Shown here in pieces: positions 303-59,954 of a stretch of 64,000 bases of DNA. Numbering within the stretch: the first letter of the stretch is position 1; each line of letters starts with the position of its first letter. The notes under the pieces were generated by a model. It saw only the letters and a list, made by a program, of their open reading frames with translations, did not search any database and was not told the origin of the DNA. This stretch comes from Heliocidaris tuberculata (taxonomy: Eukaryota; Echinodermata; Echinoidea; Camarodonta; Echinometridae), in the NCBI GenBank assembly GCA_025618425.1, contig CM046832.1, positions 20,823,917 through 20,887,916 on the forward strand, in the 5' to 3' direction. The translations under genes and the position numbers were made by a program.

Positions 303-1560
303 GGAAGCCATACAATACATGTACAAGTATACTTACAGGAGGTTTATACTTTTTTGTCTTTTGTAATAGAGCAGATAACAGGTACTAGATATATCTGATG
401 TTAGAAATGACATTTAAAGGGGAAGTCCACCCTGATTACAAGTTGGTTTAAAAAGAAGCAGAAAAACTAAAGAGAAAGATCAGTAAGGTTTGAGCAAAAT
501 ACGATAAGAAATTAGAAAGTTAGGAATTTTTAAAGTTGTACTAAATCAAACACAAACTGGCAACTCCATGACGTATCTCACGAGCTCCTCTCCCATTAGC
601 CCTGTTCCACAAAAAGCATTAATTTCCATTTTTTTCTAAAGAAAATATTCAGTAATACATGCACCTTAGATATAATCATTGCTCATATGTTTTTGCACAA
701 AACATGTGTGAAACAAACCCTTATTCCTTCATCAAAAACTAAGAAAATTGAAATTTTTGAGATTTTCTGTAGTGAGCAAATGGGAGAGGAGCTTGCAAGA
801 TATGTCACGGAGTTGCCAATTTGTGCTTGATTGATTACAACTTCAAAAATTCATAACTTTCTTATTTCTTCAGTTTTCAGTTGATTTCATATTTCAAATG
901 ACATAATTGGAACATAAACAATGACCGTTGCATTATTACAATAATATAGGAACATATCTTCAATACTTTCAACAAAAGAAGAAAAAAAAATACAAGTAAA
1001 CATACAAAGACACGGATCAATATTTCCATCATTTTAAAGTTGGGATATAAGACAAAATAGTTTGGCGTGAAATATGAGGGAATATTTGCTCAAATTTTCA
1101 CTAATCTGTTTCTCTCATTTTTCTTTTATTATTCATATCAACAAAATACCAGGGTGAATTTTGCCTTTAAAATGACACTCTGCAAAATCATTCCCCCAAT
1201 ATCGACCGTCGTAATGGCTACTTTATTTTTATGTTAATTTTAAGTACTTGGAAGCCATACAATAATCATATACATTTTGTGGTTAAGAAAGTGAATACAT
1301 TTTTGCTAATGATGCAGTTATCAGATACTATTTGACATTAAGATAATAAGTGCAAAATAAGACTTCTTAAAGTTTAGACTGTTTTAATGGCTAACTTTTA
1401 TTTGATGTCAAGCTTACATCCATAGAAGCCATACAGTATGTTCATTTTGTGGTTAGTTTAGGAGTTTTAGCTTTATCATAAAGGATAATATCTGACGTTC
1501 AAAGCAACATTTAAAATGACATATATGCAAAATCAGTCCAAAATGTCATGGGCATCAAAA
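303..1560. repeat. degenerate tandem repeat (unit ~175-195 bp), interrupted by a MITE
   Basis: The phrase GAAGCCATACA recurs at about 304, 1251 and 1426. Each is followed by related sequence (CATTTTGTGGTTA, then ATATCTGATGTT/ATCTGACGTT, then ATTTAAAATGACA...TGCAAAATCA). Subtracting the inserted element at 414-1170, the spacing is about 175-195 bp, so three diverged tandem units are visible. The array is broken by a TTAA-type MITE in unit 1 and ended by the retrotransposon at 1568. No coding potential is seen. Confidence 0.6.
414..1170. mobile_element. TTAA family A long-arm MITE, copy 1
   Basis: Bounded by TTAA at 414-417 and 1167-1170. The left end reads AAAGGGGAAGTCCACCCTG and the right end, in reverse complement, AAAGGCAAAATTCACCCTGG. 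The two halves are largely reverse complements: AACTGGCAACTCCATGACG on the left faces CACGGAGTTGCCAATTTG on the right. Relative to the left arm, the right arm carries about 210 bp of extra sequence around 870-1085. Family relatives are at 45389-45942 and 48923-49510. There is no transposase, so it is non-autonomous. The TTAA target recalls piggyBac-type elements, but the superfamily is inference. Confidence 0.8.
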
Positions 1561-1567
1561 TAGCAAG

Positions 1568-3982
1568 TCATTTATGAATGCAGTTGAATCCCTTGGGTTT
1601 AAGCAGCATGTCTGCAGTCCCACCCACCTTGCAGGACATACTCTCGATCTTTTATTTACTAGGGACTCCAAAGATGTAGTTAATGTCAATGTTTTGTCTT
1701 CACTGCCCTCTGATCATTCTGCTATTGTTGCTACAATGAAGCTTCCTTCCCTGCGAAACCCCAAGAAGAGAGTTTCCACCAGAAAATTCCGCAGCATCGT
1801 CTTGGACACATTCCAGAATGACATTAGGGCCATGTTTCGCCCACCTTCCGAACTGACATGTCCTTCTGAGGCCTTTGATCATTATAACACCTGCCTAAGG
1901 TCTCTGATTGATAGACATGCCCCCCTTCAAGTTAAAACTGTCACGATTAGACCAAAATCACCTTGGTTCACAGATGACATCTCGGAAGCAAAGAGGCGAA
2001 GGCGACGGGCGGAACGCCGCATGATCAAGTCTGGACTTTGTGCTGATAGGGAACAGTATCGCAGAGAATGTGAGTCCTACTATGAGTGTATAGTTAATGC
2101 CAAGTCTTCGTATTTCAGAAACCTCATTGCAGAGTCGGACACTAAGCAGCTATTCAGCATTGTTCGGTCACTTTCATCGCCAGATCAGTCTACTAGCCTA
2201 CCAGACCACTCTTCGGCTCAGAACCTCGCCAATCAGTTTGCCGAATTCTTCAGCGAAAAGGTATCAACTGTGATATCTTCCTTCAATTCATCAGTTTCAG
2301 ATCCAGCAACTGCATCTTCTCCGACTCCATCTCAACATAGCTTCTCAGACTTCTGTCACGTCAACGATTCAGACATTCAGAAGCTCATCCGTTCTCTGCC
2401 ATCAAAACACTGCAACTCTGACCCGATTCCTACATGGCTTCTAAAGGACTGTCTCGACGAACTAATTCCGACCATCACAAGGTTTATCAATTTATCCTTG
2501 TCATCTGGTTGTGTCCCTGATGGTATGAAAACATCACTTCTACTTCCTCTTCTAAAAAAGCCGAGCCTTGATCACAATAATCTTGTCAACTACAGGCCCA
2601 TTGCTAATCTGCCTTTCATTGGCAAGGTTTTAGAAAAGGTTGTGACTTCGCAGCTGAAGGATCACCTTGAATGTTTCGGCATGCTTCCAGTTCATCAGTC
2701 GGCTTATCGGAATCACCATTCCACTGAGACTGCCCTGGTGAAAGTCTTCAACGATATTCTCCTGGCCATTGACAGGGGCGAGGAGGCGGTGCTTATTCTC
2801 CTTGACTACACAGCTGCCTTCGATACCATCGATCATGGATTGTTGCTGCGTCGTCTGGAAAATGACTTTGGTATTTCTGGGACTGTTCTTGATTGGATCC
2901 GGTCGTACCTACACAATCGAAGACAACAAGTCATCATCGATGGCACCACATCGGCACCTTTCCCATTGGTCTGCGGCGTTCCGCAAGGTTCGGTAGTCGG
3001 CCCTCTCCTCTTCATAATGTACACAAGCCCTCTGTCAAGATGTATTGACTCTCACCAGGACATTCGCCACGCAATGTATGCAGATGACACACAAATTTAC
3101 ATCATTCTCAAGCCTACTGGGAAGGATGATGCTGCACTGAAGCTCAGCAGATGTCTTCAGGACATAAAAGCCTGGTCGCATGATAATAAGCTTTGTCTTA
3201 ATGAAACGAAATCAGAAATGATCCACTTGTTCTCAAAACACAGAAAAACAGAATCATTTCCAATGTTATTCGGTTCAGATAACAGAAACACCAGCACTCT
3301 AAAGTGTAATGATTGGGTACGGGACCTTGGGGTCACAGTGGATAGGAATCTCACTTTCCAACAACACATCAAAAATGTCTGCAGGTCTGCTTCATTTGGT
3401 ATTCACAAGATAGGAAAAATTAGGAAGCTACTCGACCAACCCACAGCTGCTAAACTAACCCATGCCTTTGTATCTGCTCATCTTGATTACTGCAACTCTA
3501 CCTTTTCCGGAATCCCACAATCCCATCTTCGTCCACTACAAAGAATTCAGAATACTGCTGCAAGGCTTGTTACCCTGTCAAAAAAATGTGAACATATAAC
3601 ACCAATTCTTCGCTCATTGCACTGGCTTCCAATACGCCAGCGCATCATTTTCAAAATTCTTCTAATAACCTATAAGATTATTAATGGCCTGTCTCCTGTA
3701 TATCTTTCTGATCTCATCTCCCTTCGCTCCTCTAGTTCTCTCCGACCTCTTCGTTCTTCAACAACCTTGCAGCTTACCCGCGGACCCCGAACTAATACCA
3801 ATTATGGTGATCGAGCCTTTTCTGTAATTGCCCCATGCCTTTGGAATCGATTACCCTCATATATCCACAATGCCAACTCCCTTGAACAATTTAAGACTTT
3901 ACTCAAAACCCATCTTTTTAATGCTTAGTTTTCTCCACTCAGCTGTGGGTTGGTCTACACTTATGGAGGTGCACATCATTTT

Positions 3983-22867: not shown

Positions 22868-23263
22868 CCTGTTCAAACTACCTAAATTCATTGTATACTA
22901 GAATCGTATAGCTGTATGATAAGTGATTAAATTTTCAGTCTGCACATCATATAAAGAAACGTTGTATGACAAAACGTTGTATAGCGAAATGCATGTTTGA
23001 GCATAATTTAAAAACTCTGTAAAGAATCAGCATGAACTTCGTATCATAAGAGAATCGTATAACTGGGCAGGATTTATTCGTGTGTCCAATTGGAATTTGT
23101 GTCCTAGACATAACCTGATACAAAACATATGGTGTCAGCTGACTTCCCCAAACCTGTTTCTGTATAAGATGTTGTAGTCTGTACACTCCTTTCGCGAATC
23201 ATGATTCTTTATACGACGTTTCTTTATACGAGTCTCGTATAACTTTCCTGTAGTGTGAACAGG
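22868..23263. mobile_element. inverted-repeat DNA element (CCTGTTCAAACTAC ends)
   Basis: The left end CCTGTTCAAACTACC pairs with the right end, whose reverse complement is CCTGTTCACACTACAGG. The interior holds several CGTATA/CGTTGTAT phrases in both orientations (for example GAATCGTATAGC and GAGTCTCGTATAAC). About 396 bp, non-coding, with no clear target duplication. Confidence 0.7.
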
Positions 23264-23770
23264 CTATGAGGCAAATGAAAACACAGCCAGTGTTAGCTTT
23301 GTTGGTGGAGTGCCTTTCACCAACTCCTGGAGTTGAAATCAAACATGGCTTTGTTCTAGTCTAGTAACCTTCTTACCATGCCCTGAATGAGTTGATGCCT
23401 TCAGTGACATACGAGTTGATCCCCTTGGCTCCATTTGACCCCTTTCTCAACTCCCCCTAATTTTCTTGCCATCCTCCTCCTCCTCCCACCTCCTCCTCAG
23501 TACTTGCTAGCAGTGAATCATTCCACTTTTTGCAGCCTGGTATCCTTTGTGCTTTGTGATTAAACTTCTTACCCGACACATTTTTTTTTCCTCTTCAATT
23601 TGACTGATTTTTAGTCAGCAGGGTTAGAGGAACTGATACTTTTCAAACTTCCAGTCTTGCCCTCATTCTTGCCCTTAATTTCTGTCCCTGTCTGATTTTC
23701 ATTATCACATATTTTAAAGCTATATTGCAAAGTATAAAACTACTTAAGAGACCTTTGTTGGTAGCTCATG
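23264..23770. other. no gene seen
   Basis: Mixed sequence with a CTCCTC-rich patch near 23475-23500. Confidence 0.45.
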
Positions 23771-24524
23771 CCTAGTTCACATTTGGCCCAGGCGCCGTAT
23801 GATAAATTGGTCTACGATTTTCTGTGCAATTTTTCGGGCATCGTAGGTGGCTATGGGCTACGGTGTTTGTGTTTACATTATCTACGAGCATCATTCCATT
23901 TCTTTTATTTGCCCTTGGGGGCAGGCCGGGGCAAATCCGTACAGGGGCTGTTCGGAAATTGTATGGAAATCGTGCGATTTCAGTGCATTTGCTGTGCAGC
24001 CTCCACAGCCTCCGCAGCCTCCGCACAGAAATCATACGACGCCCATCTGAAAAATGTTTGGCCCCTCTCAAGGCAGCTACACGGCCATGGTGCGGGAGCT
24101 GTGGGGTTTCCACAGGATGACTGCTCAATATCACGGTACTTCACGGGCATCGAGCGGCAAACTTACGATAGCTGTGCGATGGCCGTGCGAATGTCCCACA
24201 AGTCTACAATCTCTGTACGATTTTTTTTGCCTCAATGTTCATCGAAAAATCGTGCGTTTACTGCACAATCAGCATGAGGCCTCTGCGCGATGCCCTTGCG
24301 GCATTGTGCAATACCACCTACGACGTGTCTACGGGCTACGAGCTTACAATTTTCTCAAATTTGTATAACTTCGCGCGAAACAAAATCATAGAGGCCGCGG
24401 AGCCCGTGAATCTGTACGAAAATCTCACGGCCGCCTCCTTCCTCTGCGCAGAGGCCACACAGAAAAGGAGATACGGGCAGGATACAGGCTCCGTAGACCA
24501 ATCGCAGGGCAAATGTAAACTAGG
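23771..24524. mobile_element. CpG-rich inverted-repeat DNA element
   Basis: The left end CCTAGTTCACATTTGGCCC and, about 30 bp in, TTGGTCTACG match the reverse complement of the right end, CCTAGTTTACATTTGCCCTG then TTGGTCTACGG. The ~754-bp interior is far richer in CpG than its surroundings and repeats phrases such as CGTGCGATTT, GTACGATTTT and CTACGGGCTACGAG. Overlapping open frames exist on both strands but change reading across the element and show no domain, so I do not call a gene. Confidence 0.7.
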
Positions 24525-26026
24525 TATTACTTGCTTTAGTATGGTAAAAGTCAATATCAAATTTTCTTATCCTTCTGATACACCTGTTGTAGGAGGTTAT
24601 ATCACAACCCCTGAAAAATTAGCTTAGAGATGCCTGCATTTTTGAAAAATTGCAGGTTCAATGTTGATTTGTAAAGAATTTATCCTTCACCAATAAATAT
24701 CTTGTATTACTGCTGATTTACTCTGTTATAAATTTCCATAGATGGTATTGTTTCTGACTTAACAATTCACAGATGATTTTATATTCAAATCTCAGAGAAA
24801 GTGAAATTCTGAAGGTAGAACTGTGTAGGCTATTCAAAACTGTTTATAGTCATGTAATCATTTAACAAATATTGGTACTTAAATTACTTTATTATGTCAT
24901 AGAGAACATCTAACACTTAACAAGCATAAGATTACCGACATATGGGGCACATTAATTTTATTTTAGGTTATCAAATGGAATTTGGTGTGTACTAGGTAAT
25001 GTGAAACTGGTGGAATAATTATCTTAAAAATGAAATGTAATTCAATACAGCTTTTGTGCAATGGCATAATTATATGATATAAGATAATTTGTGACATTTG
25101 CATGATAAGCACTTTCCAGCCATGCATCTCCTTAAGCTTTATGCTATGTAATTCCACCTCTTTTCCCCAGCCCCCTTTCTGAGAGTCCACCTGCCCCTCC
25201 TCCCTTTGAAGCCATATGACCAGCCTTGATTTACTCAATGAATTTTTAGTGATAAGATATAACAAATAATGTCATTTATGTCACATAATCTGCACACCCC
25301 TTCCCCTACCAAAAATCAATGTTCAGTGATAAGATACCATATCACATACTCTGCATCCTCGGCGCATCACACCCCATCACCCCGTCTCCTATTATAGTAA
25401 CCATCACCAGCCAGATGTTCTACTTTCACTGGTCCCCTCTCCTCTCCTTCCTGCCTGCTCCCGCTCCTGCTTATTTCAAATATTCCATTCAAGCCCATTA
25501 CACTGTCAGTGATAAATGGTTACATTTTGGGGCTTTGCCTATTAAGGCCGCAATGGCTCATTCAGAGAGCTAAATTGACCAAATTAGCATCAGTTTTGAG
25601 AATCGGACTATGATACACATCAAAACTCATTCCTTTGCTGCCTGTTCATGTTTGTAATCCAATCATGAAGTGACTCTGACATGATATGCATCAGTCTATA
25701 AATGCGATCTTGAACAAATTGCATGAATAGTGCATTAATGATTAAGTTCAGTCTTTCAACACAGAAAAAAATGGTCCATGCATTCATACTGAAAGATAAA
25801 GGAGAATTTACCCCAGAATATAAATGTAGTTATGTTCAAAGGTGTAATATATTCTTATTCATTGGCCTGTATCACTTTAGAAATAAAATATCAGAAAAGG
25901 GTTTAAATCAAGATATTCTAGCACACGATATCATCTGCTAACACTTTACATGGTGGATGCCATTTTCTTGATGATATGGAGTTGTACATGAACGATTGGA
26001 AACCGTTCCGGTCAGGAAGATATTTT
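24525..26026. other. no gene seen
   Basis: About 1.5 kb of AT-rich sequence. A partial local repeat of AGTGATAAGATA followed by CACATA-CTGCA occurs around 25247 and 25325. Confidence 0.45.
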
Positions 26027-26290
26027 GGGGTAACCTCGCTAGTCATAAGGACCGCTATTCATAAGGACCACTTATTCATAAGGACCGCTATCCATAACGC
26101 GTGACTAAATGAATAGCGGTTTTGTACGAATAGCGGTCCTTCTGAATAGTGAGCAAACCGTAGACAAATTACCTCTCTATTCATAAGGACATCCATTCAT
26201 AAGGACCACTATTCATAACTACTCATAAGGACCGCTATTCATAATGCATGTGAAATGAATAGTGGTTCTTATGAATAGCGAGCGGACCCC
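26027..26290. mobile_element. nested-foldback element with 8-bp duplication, copy 1
   Basis: 264 bp from GGGGTAACCTCGCTA to TAGCGAGCGGACCCC (partly inverted). It is flanked by exact 8-bp direct repeats GATATTTT at 26019-26026 and 26291-26298. Inside, the motif TCATAAGGACCGCTATTCA and its reverse complement (TGAATAGCGGTCCTT type) recur many times. Second copy at 33839-34086. Confidence 0.9.
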
Positions 26291-33838: not shown

Positions 33839-34086
33839 GGGGTAACCTCGCTAGTCATAAGGACCGCTATTCATAAGTACCGCTATCCATAACTCGTGAC
33901 TAATTGAATAGCGGTTTTGTATGAATAGTGGTCCTTCTACACAGTGAGCAAACCATACACAAATTACCTCGCTATTCATAAGGACCACTATTCATAACTA
34001 TTCATAAGGACTGCTATTCATAATGCAGGTTAAATGAATAGCGGTTTTCTATGAATAGCGGTCATTATGAATAGCGAGTGGACCCC
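33839..34086. mobile_element. nested-foldback element with 8-bp duplication, copy 2
   Basis: 248 bp, same ends and internal motif series as 26027-26290. The flanks CTTTTTGA (33831-33838) and CTTTTTAA (34087-34094) match at 7 of 8 bases, as expected of an aged target duplication. Confidence 0.88.
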
Positions 34087-51164: not shown

Positions 51165-51950
51165 AATCAGATGCTGGTACTACTTGATTGTGTATTGACT
51201 TCTGTTTCTGCATGTGGAGTGTGGCCAACTGCTATATAGTGACCAGCGCAGATGATGTGACTGGATGGTGGTGGGCTCAGGCTACTGCTGGATCCTAATG
51301 TGCCATGTGCAGATGCTGGAATTACTTGATAGGAACATGTAGTTGGTGCAGCTTGATGGAGTGCAGTTGCTTGCAAACATGGTGTACAGATGCAACTCCT
51401 AGATGGTGATAGTGCACATTAGGCTCGTGCACATACTGATGGTGTGCAACTTCTCGCGTGCAGACAATGTCCTTGCAGGTAGTAATGTGTACTGCTGTAT
51501 CAAGTGTTGTGCAGATATATACCTTGCGGTTACTGCTGCCTGATATGCAAGTGTGCAGGTGCTGGTACTTCCATGTGGGGTGCAGGTGCCAGAACTGCTG
51601 GACAGTGTTGTGCAGATACTGAACGTGGTGGTGTGCAGAAGCTGTTACCATTGGTGTGCAGAATGCTTGCATTGCTGTAAGGGGGTGTGCAGATAGTGGA
51701 CCTTGGCGTTGATAGTATACAGGTGCTCGTACCACGAGATGATATGTGATGCGGGTCGGATGAGTCCAGGTGTTCTAATGCTGGTATTTCTTGATGGCTT
51801 GTAGATACTGAAAATAGTGTAGTGTAGAGTTTATGTAGGCTAGGTGGTGGAGTGCAAATTCCGGTGCTGTTGATCAGTGGTGTGCAGATGCTGGAACTAC
51901 TGGGTTTTGGTGTGCTGATGCAAAGTGTTTTGCGTGAAGAAGGTGGCAAG
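51165..51950. repeat. degenerate minisatellite (GTGTGCAGATGCTGG type)
   Basis: A phrase close to GTGTGCAGATGCTGGTACTA recurs irregularly every ~25-60 bases on the + strand (for example near 51170, 51308, 51555, 51630 and 51883). Long frames without stops are present on the minus strand with recurring S-S-S-I-C-T-P type peptides, but these follow from the repeat and no domain is seen. Confidence 0.65.
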
Positions 51951-51961
51951 TAGGGAACGGT

Positions 51962-52181
51962 GCTGACACAACATTTGCTCCTGCGATATTTGCTTCTCTG
52001 TCTATATCTCGAAAGGTCAAAGGTTAAGGTCAAGGTCATGATTTGGTTTTTTGTTAAGGTCAATATGAAGATTAGGATTAGGGTAAGGGTTAGGGTTAGG
52101 GTTAGGGTTAGGTTTAGGTTTAGGATTAACATGGCAAAGTTAGACTGGAGCGATTGTCACAGGAGCAAATGTCATGGAACC
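51962..52181. mobile_element. Mutator-like MITE carrying TTAGGG telomere-type repeats
   Basis: A 9-bp direct repeat GGGAACGGT lies at 51953-51961 and 52182-52190. Inside it, ACATTTGCTCCTG (51971) is the reverse complement of CAGGAGCAAATGT at 52160-52172. A 9-bp duplication is characteristic of Mutator-like elements. The centre, about 52077-52122, is a run of GGGTTA telomere-type units with GGTTTA variants, preceded by AAGGTCAAAGGTTAAGGTC. No coding sequence. Confidence 0.8.
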
Positions 52182-52345
52182 GGGAACGGTAGGAGCTGTA
52201 CATTGCTATAATCATCATCTGGCCTTTTTGCAGGTCAGTGGTCAACCTTTGCAAGTAGTTCCAGATATTTGGCAGCCTCATCAATAGCATAATGTCCAGC
52301 TTTCTGAACTTGGTCCTGTCCTGAGATTGAATTGGACTGGAATAG

Positions 52346-53484: not shown

Positions 53485-54206
53485 TCTTCTTCTTCTTCTT
53501 CTTCTTCTTCTTCTTCTTCTTCTTCTTCTTCTTCTTCTCCTTCTTCTTCTTCTTCTTCTCCTTCTTCTTCTTCTCCTTCTCCTTTTCTTCTTCTCCTCCT
53601 TCTTCTTCTTCTTCTTCTCCTCCTTCCTCTTCTTCTTCTTCTTCTTCTTCTTCTCCTCCTTTTCTTCTTCTTCTCCTCCTTCTCCTTCTTCTTCTCCTCC
53701 TCCTTCCTCTTCTTCTTCTTCTTCTTCGCCTTCTCCTTTTCTTCTTCTTCTCCTTTTCTTCTTCTCCTTCTCCTTCTTCTTCTTCTCCTTCTTCTTCTTC
53801 TTCTTCTTCTCCTTTTCTTCTTCTCCTCCTTCTTCTTCTTCTCCTCCTTCCTCTTCTTCTTCTTCTTCTTCTTCTTCTTCTCCTTTTCTTCTTCTTCTCC
53901 TCCTTCTTCTTCTCCTCCTCCTTCCTCTTCTTCTTCTTCTTCTTCTTCGCCTTCTCCTTTTCTTCTTCTTCTTCTCCTTTTCTTCTTCTCCTTCTCCTTC
54001 TTCTTCTCCTTCTTCTTCTTCTTCTTCTTCTTCTTCTTCTTCTTCTTCTTCTTCTTCTTCTTCTTCTTCTTCTTCTTCTTCTTCTTCTTCTTCTTCTTCT
54101 TCTTCTTCTTCTTCTTCTTCTTCTTCTTCTTCTTCTTCTTCTTCTTCTTCTTCTTCTTCTTCTTCTTCTTCTTCTTCTTCTTCTTCTTCTTCTTCTTCTT
54201 CTTCTT
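53485..54206 (+). repeat. ~720-bp (TTC)n array with higher-order structure
   Basis: Nearly pure TTC triplets with CTCC and TTTT variants from 53485 to about 54010, then about 200 bases of uninterrupted TTC. The rare TTCGCC variant appears twice, at about 53727 and 53948, with matching flanks, indicating a 221-bp segmental duplication within the array. The 259-residue Glu-rich and Leu/Ser-rich frames on the two strands are artefacts. Confidence 0.97.
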
Positions 54207-54716
54207 CGGGGTGGAGGGGGCTCAATCTACAATGATCAGGAGAATAAACAAAATTATATGTTACCGTTGGAAATGCACTTTACAATGCAAGTAAATGCAA
54301 TATAATGTACTTAATCATAATGTTTTATCAGTTGCCCTTGTAGTGTCATTCAGGTAGAAATGAGTAATTTCATACAGCACGTTCATCTTAACGGAAATTA
54401 AAATGACTCGGTCTATGCATAGACAATTAGTTGAGGGTAGGTAATAAAAATGGATGAACAGGTAATTAAGGGTGGAGAAAAGGTATTTTGAGAATTTTCT
54501 ACACCATTTATGTAAAGTATTACCCACCAGAAATGTTCTATATTTGTTTCTTTCCTTTCCTTAGACATGGAAAGGAGAATAAAGGTCTCAGAACAATGGC
54601 TATGTGCATTTATGATTGATGTTGGCCAGCCTAACTAGACCATTATATTCTCTGGAGTAGAGTTCTCCAGGGAACGAAGTGACCCATATTCGTAAACCTC
54701 AATATGACTTTACCAC

Positions 54717-59686: not shown

Positions 59687-59954
59687 CAGGGGCGGCGCTA
59701 CAGGGGGGGCAGAGGGGGCGACCGCCCCCCCCCCCTATGATTTTTCAAGTAGTGAAAAAAGAAAAAAAGAAGAAGAAAAAAGAAAAGGAGGAAGAAAAGG
59801 GAAGAAAAGGGAAGAAAGAAGAAAGTGGAGTATTAAAAAGAGAGGTCTTAAACATATAACTCTATATTACCCCTGTTATTTAATGGAGAAAAAATATGAC
59901 GTCATCTTTCGGTCGTCTTGCCCCTCCTATCAAAATACCCTGGCGCCGCCCCTG
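59687..59954. mobile_element. hAT-type MITE with perfect ends
   Basis: CAGGGGCGGCGCTA at the left and TGGCGCCGCCCCTG at the right, flanked by the exact 8-bp duplication CTTATATC at 59679-59686 and 59955-59962. The 268-bp body has a purine-rich AAGAAGAAAA stretch and differs from the 22563-type family apart from the terminal bases. Confidence 0.93.

Follow-up and report, generated by a model that had tools for sequence, protein, structure and literature searches.

Background

Tandem arrays of the telomere motif TTAGGG in chromosome interiors, known as interstitial telomeric sequences, can originate by chromosome fusion or by break repair. Tandem repeats in general can also be dispersed by short non-autonomous inverted-repeat elements (MITEs), and the portions of the literature available to us describe MITEs that carry or yield such repeats, including Xmix/Xstir and miDNA4 in Xenopus, (GTCY)n MITEs in Lepidoptera and pearl or CvA-type elements in bivalves, with ants also among the hosts (PMC9659126, PMC6947457). 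Mutator elements form a further group of interest. The accessible part of one source gives their target-site duplications as 8-11 bp, and lists Phantom with duplications of 8-10 bp or not indicated and with terminal inverted repeats of 18-613 bp or none, and Rehavkus with a 9-bp duplication and a minisatellite (PMC6446971).

Here we describe an element from the sea urchin Heliocidaris tuberculata that is similar to the Xenopus, Lepidoptera and bivalve MITEs in being a short non-autonomous inverted-repeat element that disperses a tandem array, and that differs from them, as far as the available portions of those papers go, in that the repeated unit is the telomere motif TTAGGG and the arrays so scattered are classed as interstitial telomeric sequence (PMC9659126, PMC6947457). 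Like the interior arrays attributed to fusion or break repair in the accessible part of PMC9498494, the tracts of this family are interior TTAGGG arrays, but unlike those they lie inside a transposon with target-site duplications and in one orientation relative to the element. The duplication length falls in the range of Mutator-like elements such as Phantom and Rehavkus, some groups of which have minisatellite-like repeats, whereas the inverted repeats of the present family are only about 35 bp long and the family is known here without a linked transposase (PMC6446971, as far as its available part goes). Searching a limited library by title or abstract, we found no MITE with a TTAGGG core, which is not proof of absence. 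MITEs that carry tandem repeats are already known; TTAGGG as the carried unit affects how interstitial telomere repeats are read.

Results

Structure of the element in the window

The window, by which we mean the whole 64,000-nucleotide stretch that was analysed (C1:20823917-20887916), contains the element and its parts at the following positions.

51962..52181, + strand: whole element (MITE), 220 bp, supported by genome-wide right ends and copy alignments
51953..51961, no strand: left target-site duplication GGGAACGGT, exact match to 52182-52190
52182..52190, no strand: right target-site duplication GGGAACGGT, exact match to 51953-51961
51962..51996, + strand: left terminal inverted repeat, family consensus GGTGACACGACATTTGCTCCTGCGACATTTGCTCC, in which a 15-bp unit occurs twice
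52147..52181, - strand: right terminal inverted repeat, family consensus in inward reading GGTTCCATGACATTTGCTCCTGCGACAATTGCTCC
52014..52062, + strand: internal AGGTCA/AGGTTA-type hexamers with period 6, adjoining the TTAGGG tract
52070..52129, + strand: TTAGGG-type tract, with near-constant and degenerate edges (GATTAGGATT left, TTAGGTTTAGGTTTAGGATTAA right) and a TTAGGG middle of variable length

The terminal inverted repeats are imperfect overall and include a 13-bp stretch that is perfect in the window copy (ACATTTGCTCCTG at 51971-51983, with its inverse at 52160-52172); each of the two cores lies exactly 9 nt inside the 9-bp duplication. Inverted pairs of 13-mers spaced 120-400 bp apart occur 28 times in the window, and only the element at 51962-52181 has a symmetric exact 9-bp duplication around them; 20 first-order Markov simulations gave 21 such inverted pairs and 0 with a duplication. 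The first-pass annotation had described a TTAGGG run enclosed by inverted ends and an exact 9-bp direct repeat, and its coordinates are right to the base.

TRF reports 9.5 units with 90% matches at 52072-52128, and four units of the tract are exact TTAGGG. Allowing up to 2 mismatches, TTAGGGTTAGGG matches 10 places in the window, compared with a mean of 3.3 and a largest value of 7 in shuffled sequences, and eight of the 10 fall in the tract at 52070-52129. Over the 86 nt preceding the tract the period-6 identity is 0.50, which 1 in 5,000 mononucleotide shuffles attains; in the family consensus it is 0.52 across 68 nt. The window element has no transposase coding capacity. One 79-residue open frame runs through its 220 bp, and the 28 database matches listed for this frame (best E 0.04) were all read as low-complexity RV-repeats.

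Several other features of the window were recorded. By eye, a degenerate minisatellite-like stretch of GTGTGCAGATGCTGG-type units (51300-51930) adjoins the insertion on the left. Inverted CAGGGGCGGCG ends with an 8-bp duplication CTTATATC at 59687-59954 look like a MITE of what we take to be the hAT type, and two copies of a family with inverted and tandem 16-bp units like CGCTATTCATAAGGAC are located at 26027-26290 and 33839-34085. A LINE frame of 802 residues is open at 1520-3928 and has homology to reverse transcriptase (PF00078); among the 120 matches listed for this frame, the best relative is 69% identical and the best one with an organism name, read as Strongylocentrotus, has 67% identity over 58% of the query. 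A TCT-triplet array of more than 700 bp (53485-54207) has several frames open on both strands.

A high-copy MITE family

Copies were sought in the 897.3-Mb assembly of 69 contigs. The whole-element query returned 41 rows, the best 40 of 1,761 candidates being scored, with 84-95% identity when the window copy is excluded. The first 20 nt of the inward-reading right end, with 1 mismatch allowed, occur at 1,591 places genome-wide and the reversed-pattern control at 0, while a looser end pattern gave 2,240 places versus 1 for its control.

Four sets of copies were analysed: 1) 39 further copies from the whole-element list, where the query contained the tract; 2) 30 of 40 scored places from a tract-free left-end query, made up of 9 new places, 20 within the 39 and the window copy; 3) 40 right-end places taken in list order, all on contig C1, with two previously sampled places omitted; and 4) another 20 ends on C1, of which 19 had no partner among the listed looser-pattern ends. 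Sets 1) and 2) pooled with the window copy comprise 46 distinct places after merging identical flanks, and 45 insertions after merging near-identical ones.

The family consensus is 214 bp long and its two ends are identical at 31 of the first 38 positions compared. Both ends are present in 43 of the 45 pooled insertions, and in these 43 the target-site duplication is exact and 8 bp long in 15, exact and 9 bp long in 10, carries one mismatch in 7 and is missing in 11. In the right-end sample, both ends were recognised by pattern in 34 of 40, including three pairs of segmental duplicates, with duplications of 9 bp in 11, of 8 bp in 10 and none in 13. Taken together, the two sets have 46 exact duplications, of which 25 are 8 bp, this length being about as frequent as 9 bp. 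Of the insertions in which the criteria applied detect no duplication at the expected place, some seem to have diverged or shifted and others may be rearranged. Copy lengths in the right-end sample are 184-223 bp in 31 of 34 and 328-378 bp in the other three. Outside the tract, the 31 sampled copies of 180-230 bp differ from the consensus by 4.0% on average (range 1.2-9.7%), a figure that omits the three longer ones and the six that do not have both ends. With inverted repeats, near-fixed duplications at independent sites, a short homogeneous length and a high copy number, the family consists of MITEs.

Two copies 25 Mb apart on C1 (L220 at 1.10 Mb and L240 at 26.59 Mb) contain an identical nested palindromic insertion near the right end; since they share both this insertion and the flanking duplication, they probably represent a segmental duplication.

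Outside this genome, two patterns gave 0 places in viral contigs. One loose pattern gave at least 120 viral loci, none of those listed having paired ends or TTAGGGTTAGGG, and a 19-mer gave 2 single matches to bacterial records among genome contigs; both results were read as chance. Plasmids and phages each yielded 2 records, whose matches were 21-33 nt long with E of 0.2 or worse.

Position of the TTAGGG tract among copies

The tract occupies the same internal place in all 39 best matches to the tract-containing query, in all 30 loci of the tract-free left-end query (9 of them new), in all 40 right-end samples from contig C1 and in 19 of the 20 further ends. Among the 40, L247 has TTAGG units and zero exact TTAGGG, and the single exception among the 20, L271, breaks at GATTA into T-rich foreign sequence. 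Ends without a TTAGGG-type core had been named in advance as evidence that the repeats were added later, and apart from this one interrupted copy none appeared. Copies lacking only the run, the other such sign of later addition, were sought as tract flanks 0-25 nt apart: 4 places were found, every one still with TTAGG units between the flanks, against 839 places genome-wide with flanks 40-70 nt apart. These searches favour copies close to the probes, and much older tract-less relatives may have been missed.

Since the tract stands at the same place in nearly all sampled copies, their comparison indicates that it is an ancestral component of the element whose length changes later. These counts bear out the proposal that the telomere-like run moves with a short DNA transposon, here a non-autonomous one, and so is supported the suggestion that TTAGGG repeats can be scattered without chromosome fusion, given a family of 1,591 right ends that carries the tract at the same place. 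The expectation that each copy would have a TTAGGG core and a 9-bp duplication held for the core, with the qualifications noted for L247 and L271, and failed for the duplication, which is 8 or 9 bp long and in some copies absent.

Length change and breakage of the tract

Aligned copies mostly keep the edges GATTAGGATT and TTAGGTTTAGGTTTAGGATTAA unchanged save for point changes, and vary in the TTAGGG middle. Among the places with flanks 40-70 nt apart, lengths fall on a 6-bp ladder in 38 of the 44 matches listed with their sequence. Where flanks are identical or almost so, three pairs of copies (L131/L137, L133/L143 and L263/L264) differ in length by whole units, and six duplicate sets (L148/L149, L160/L161, L220/L240, L244/L247, L246/L248 and L272-L274) have equal unit numbers. 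The differences within duplicate pairs imply that the number of units can change after insertion. Replication slippage is the ordinary cause of changes in unit number, and it is probably what adds and removes units here.

Four broken copies (L230, L234, L271 and L168) have a breakpoint in or beside the tract, and three of these, L230, L234 and L271, indicate that the tract is also a breakpoint site. It may be a hot spot for breakage or insertion, although the numbers are small.

Interior telomere repeats and contig ends

(TTAGGG)3 occurs 6,178 times and (TTAGGG)4 3,641 times genome-wide, which gives 2,537 perfect arrays of at least 3 units, including pieces of clusters near contig ends. The boundary signature of the family, (TTAGGG)3TTAGGTTTAGG, is found at 689 places, or 27% of these arrays. 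Two corrections to this percentage act in opposite directions. The signature is kept exactly in 12 of 15 sampled copies with at least 3 units, and the count consequently misses copies; conversely, of the 51 signature places on C1, 42 lie within 300 bp of a listed end or interior of the element, another 2 were confirmed by direct reading and 7 are unverified. We also read seven interior C1 arrays of at least 6 units outside the end clusters, and three of them (L282, L284 and L289) belong to the MITE family, as does an array on contig C2 (L288). Two others, L286 and L287 (G000:C1:63686040-63686270 and 70023800-70024050), have TTAGGG arrays of 7 and 13 units followed by common sequence, and the ends of L287 resemble GACATTTGCTC and GGAGCATATGT, which are related to the MITE family ends; the two look like members of a second, diverged TTAGGG-carrying family.

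The first-pass annotation had further suggested that the element may have arisen at, or feed sequence to, chromosome ends, and had proposed a test of whether copies cluster near telomeres. Our results do not support this, with the reservation that the ends of contigs and of chromosomes may not coincide: copies show no enrichment towards contig ends, and an element that targets subtelomeres or maintains telomeres is not indicated. Signature places are no nearer to contig ends than expected by chance on C1 (51 places, KS p 0.71) or C2 (45 places, p 0.63), and uniform distributions also fit the distances to the contig end of 72 exact right ends on C1 (p 0.56) and the relative distances of the 40 best places of the family (p 0.89). 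The spread of signature places along C1 is itself somewhat uneven (p 0.02). The reservation arises from the ends themselves: in the terminal 6 kb at 20 ends, from 10 contigs, no run of at least 3 TTAGGG was found, and one of these stretches, L180, has N at its start and finish. On C1, perfect TTAGGG arrays form clusters near, and not at, both ends, at 22878-24954 and 1223505-1263728 in one orientation and at 75847794-75848074 in the other; the outermost 6 kb of C1 have no arrays.

Superfamily placement

Elements of the Merlin superfamily have ends that start with GG and target-site duplications of 8-9 bp. The present family, known here without a linked transposase, shares both features, its ends beginning with GG and its duplications being a mixture of 8 and 9 bp, and the genome contains 30 matches to the IS1595-type transposase (PF12762), five of them near-equal in score with open frames of 345-351 residues. 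A place in Merlin (IS1016/IS1595-like) rather than Mutator is therefore a serious candidate, to which we give a little less than an even chance. Against it, 14 matches to the MULE transposase (PF10551) are also present, and lengths of 8 and 9 bp lie as well within the 8-11 bp given for Mutator in the accessible part of PMC6446971. Matches of equal score include those at C9:24091520 and C10:6855916 for the IS1595-type transposase and at C2:9474983 and C17:19098224 for the MULE transposase. In the designation 'Mutator-like MITE' of the first-pass annotation, the second word stands and the first is left in doubt: the duplications fit, and a Merlin-type partner is equally compatible. Rehavkus fits less well: its duplication, as given in the available part of the source, is 9 bp, unlike the present family, about half of whose exact duplications (the 25 of 46) are 8 bp (PMC6446971).

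An autonomous partner would be a transposase element bearing GGTNNCANGACATTTGCTCC ends. No such element was found by the end-spacing scan, in which no two of the first 100 of the 2,240 ends were 1-10 kb apart, or at the two MULE loci read. The 3.3-kb locus L260 has no GGTNNCANGACATTTGCTCC-type ends around it. At L261 a complete MITE copy with a duplication of its own, AAAAATTTG, lies about 0.4 kb from the MULE match, and was read as no more than a neighbour of it.

Discussion

The element in the window is very probably a copy of a MITE family whose founder held a hexamer array with a TTAGGG middle, which spread by transposition and then changed in length. The family is a short, non-autonomous, cut-and-paste one of about 214 bp, and would be mobilised by a transposase, presumably encoded elsewhere, that acts on the inverted GGT...GACATTTGCTCC ends and leaves a target duplication of 8-9 bp. 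The comparison of copies shows that the array was present in the founding element and that each transposition carried the tract to a new interior site. After insertion, whole 6-bp units are added to or lost from the middle, as some duplicate pairs and the 6-bp ladder show, and point mutations break it up.

A rival to this history is that the TTAGGG run was added independently at the window locus, by telomerase at a break, by fusion or by microsatellite growth, and that the inverted repeats are incidental. Arrays of that kind may exist here, two of the seven interior C1 arrays of at least 6 units (L283 and L285) lying outside any recognised element, but the family comparison, in which almost all sampled copies have the tract at the same place and with near-identical edge units, contradicts such an addition and makes it extremely improbable. 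How the founder obtained its tract is a separate matter. Our preference, held at somewhat better than an even chance, is that the tract developed in situ out of AGGTYA hexamers that the element already had, because the adjoining hexamers are a single base off (AGGTTA versus GGGTTA) and the edge units are not perfect TTAGGG. This most likely origin draws on one periodicity test and on that one-base likeness. The founder could instead have picked up a genuine piece of telomere, for instance when it inserted into a chromosome end or recombined with one, and been amplified afterwards, a course of events that differs only in the origin of the tract. Such a capture, to which we give roughly a one-in-three chance, would account for the exact TTAGGG unit in the middle of the tract, and the perfect TTAGGG arrays near both ends of C1 in opposite orientation are as expected for a TTAGGG telomere. 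It fits less well with the hexamers one base away, AGGTTA and AGGTCA, that fill the neighbouring 50 bp, with the imperfect edge units TTAGGA, TTAGGT and TTTAGG, and with the lack of enrichment of copies at contig ends.

Whether grown in place, as we prefer, or captured, the TTAGGG core might be more than a passenger. It could be kept for aiding the element, for instance through a G-quadruplex or the binding of a telomere protein, with copies that seed longer arrays and break preferentially. Four GGG runs with short loops are kept in 24 of the 45 independent insertions. The seeding of arrays is suggested by the three of seven interior C1 arrays of at least 6 units that belong to the family, with 2 more in the diverged-looking one, and preferential breakage by the several broken copies that end in or beside the tract. 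We consider a role of this kind unlikely.

Conclusions

It is usual to interpret interstitial telomere repeats as scars left by fused chromosomes or by telomerase acting at breaks. With about a quarter of the perfect arrays carrying a transposon signature, such repeats are poor evidence of fusion in this genome. The approximately 1,600 copies of the family, whose insertion sites and divergence can be read, constitute a natural experiment on the growth, shrinkage and breakage of interior TTAGGG arrays.
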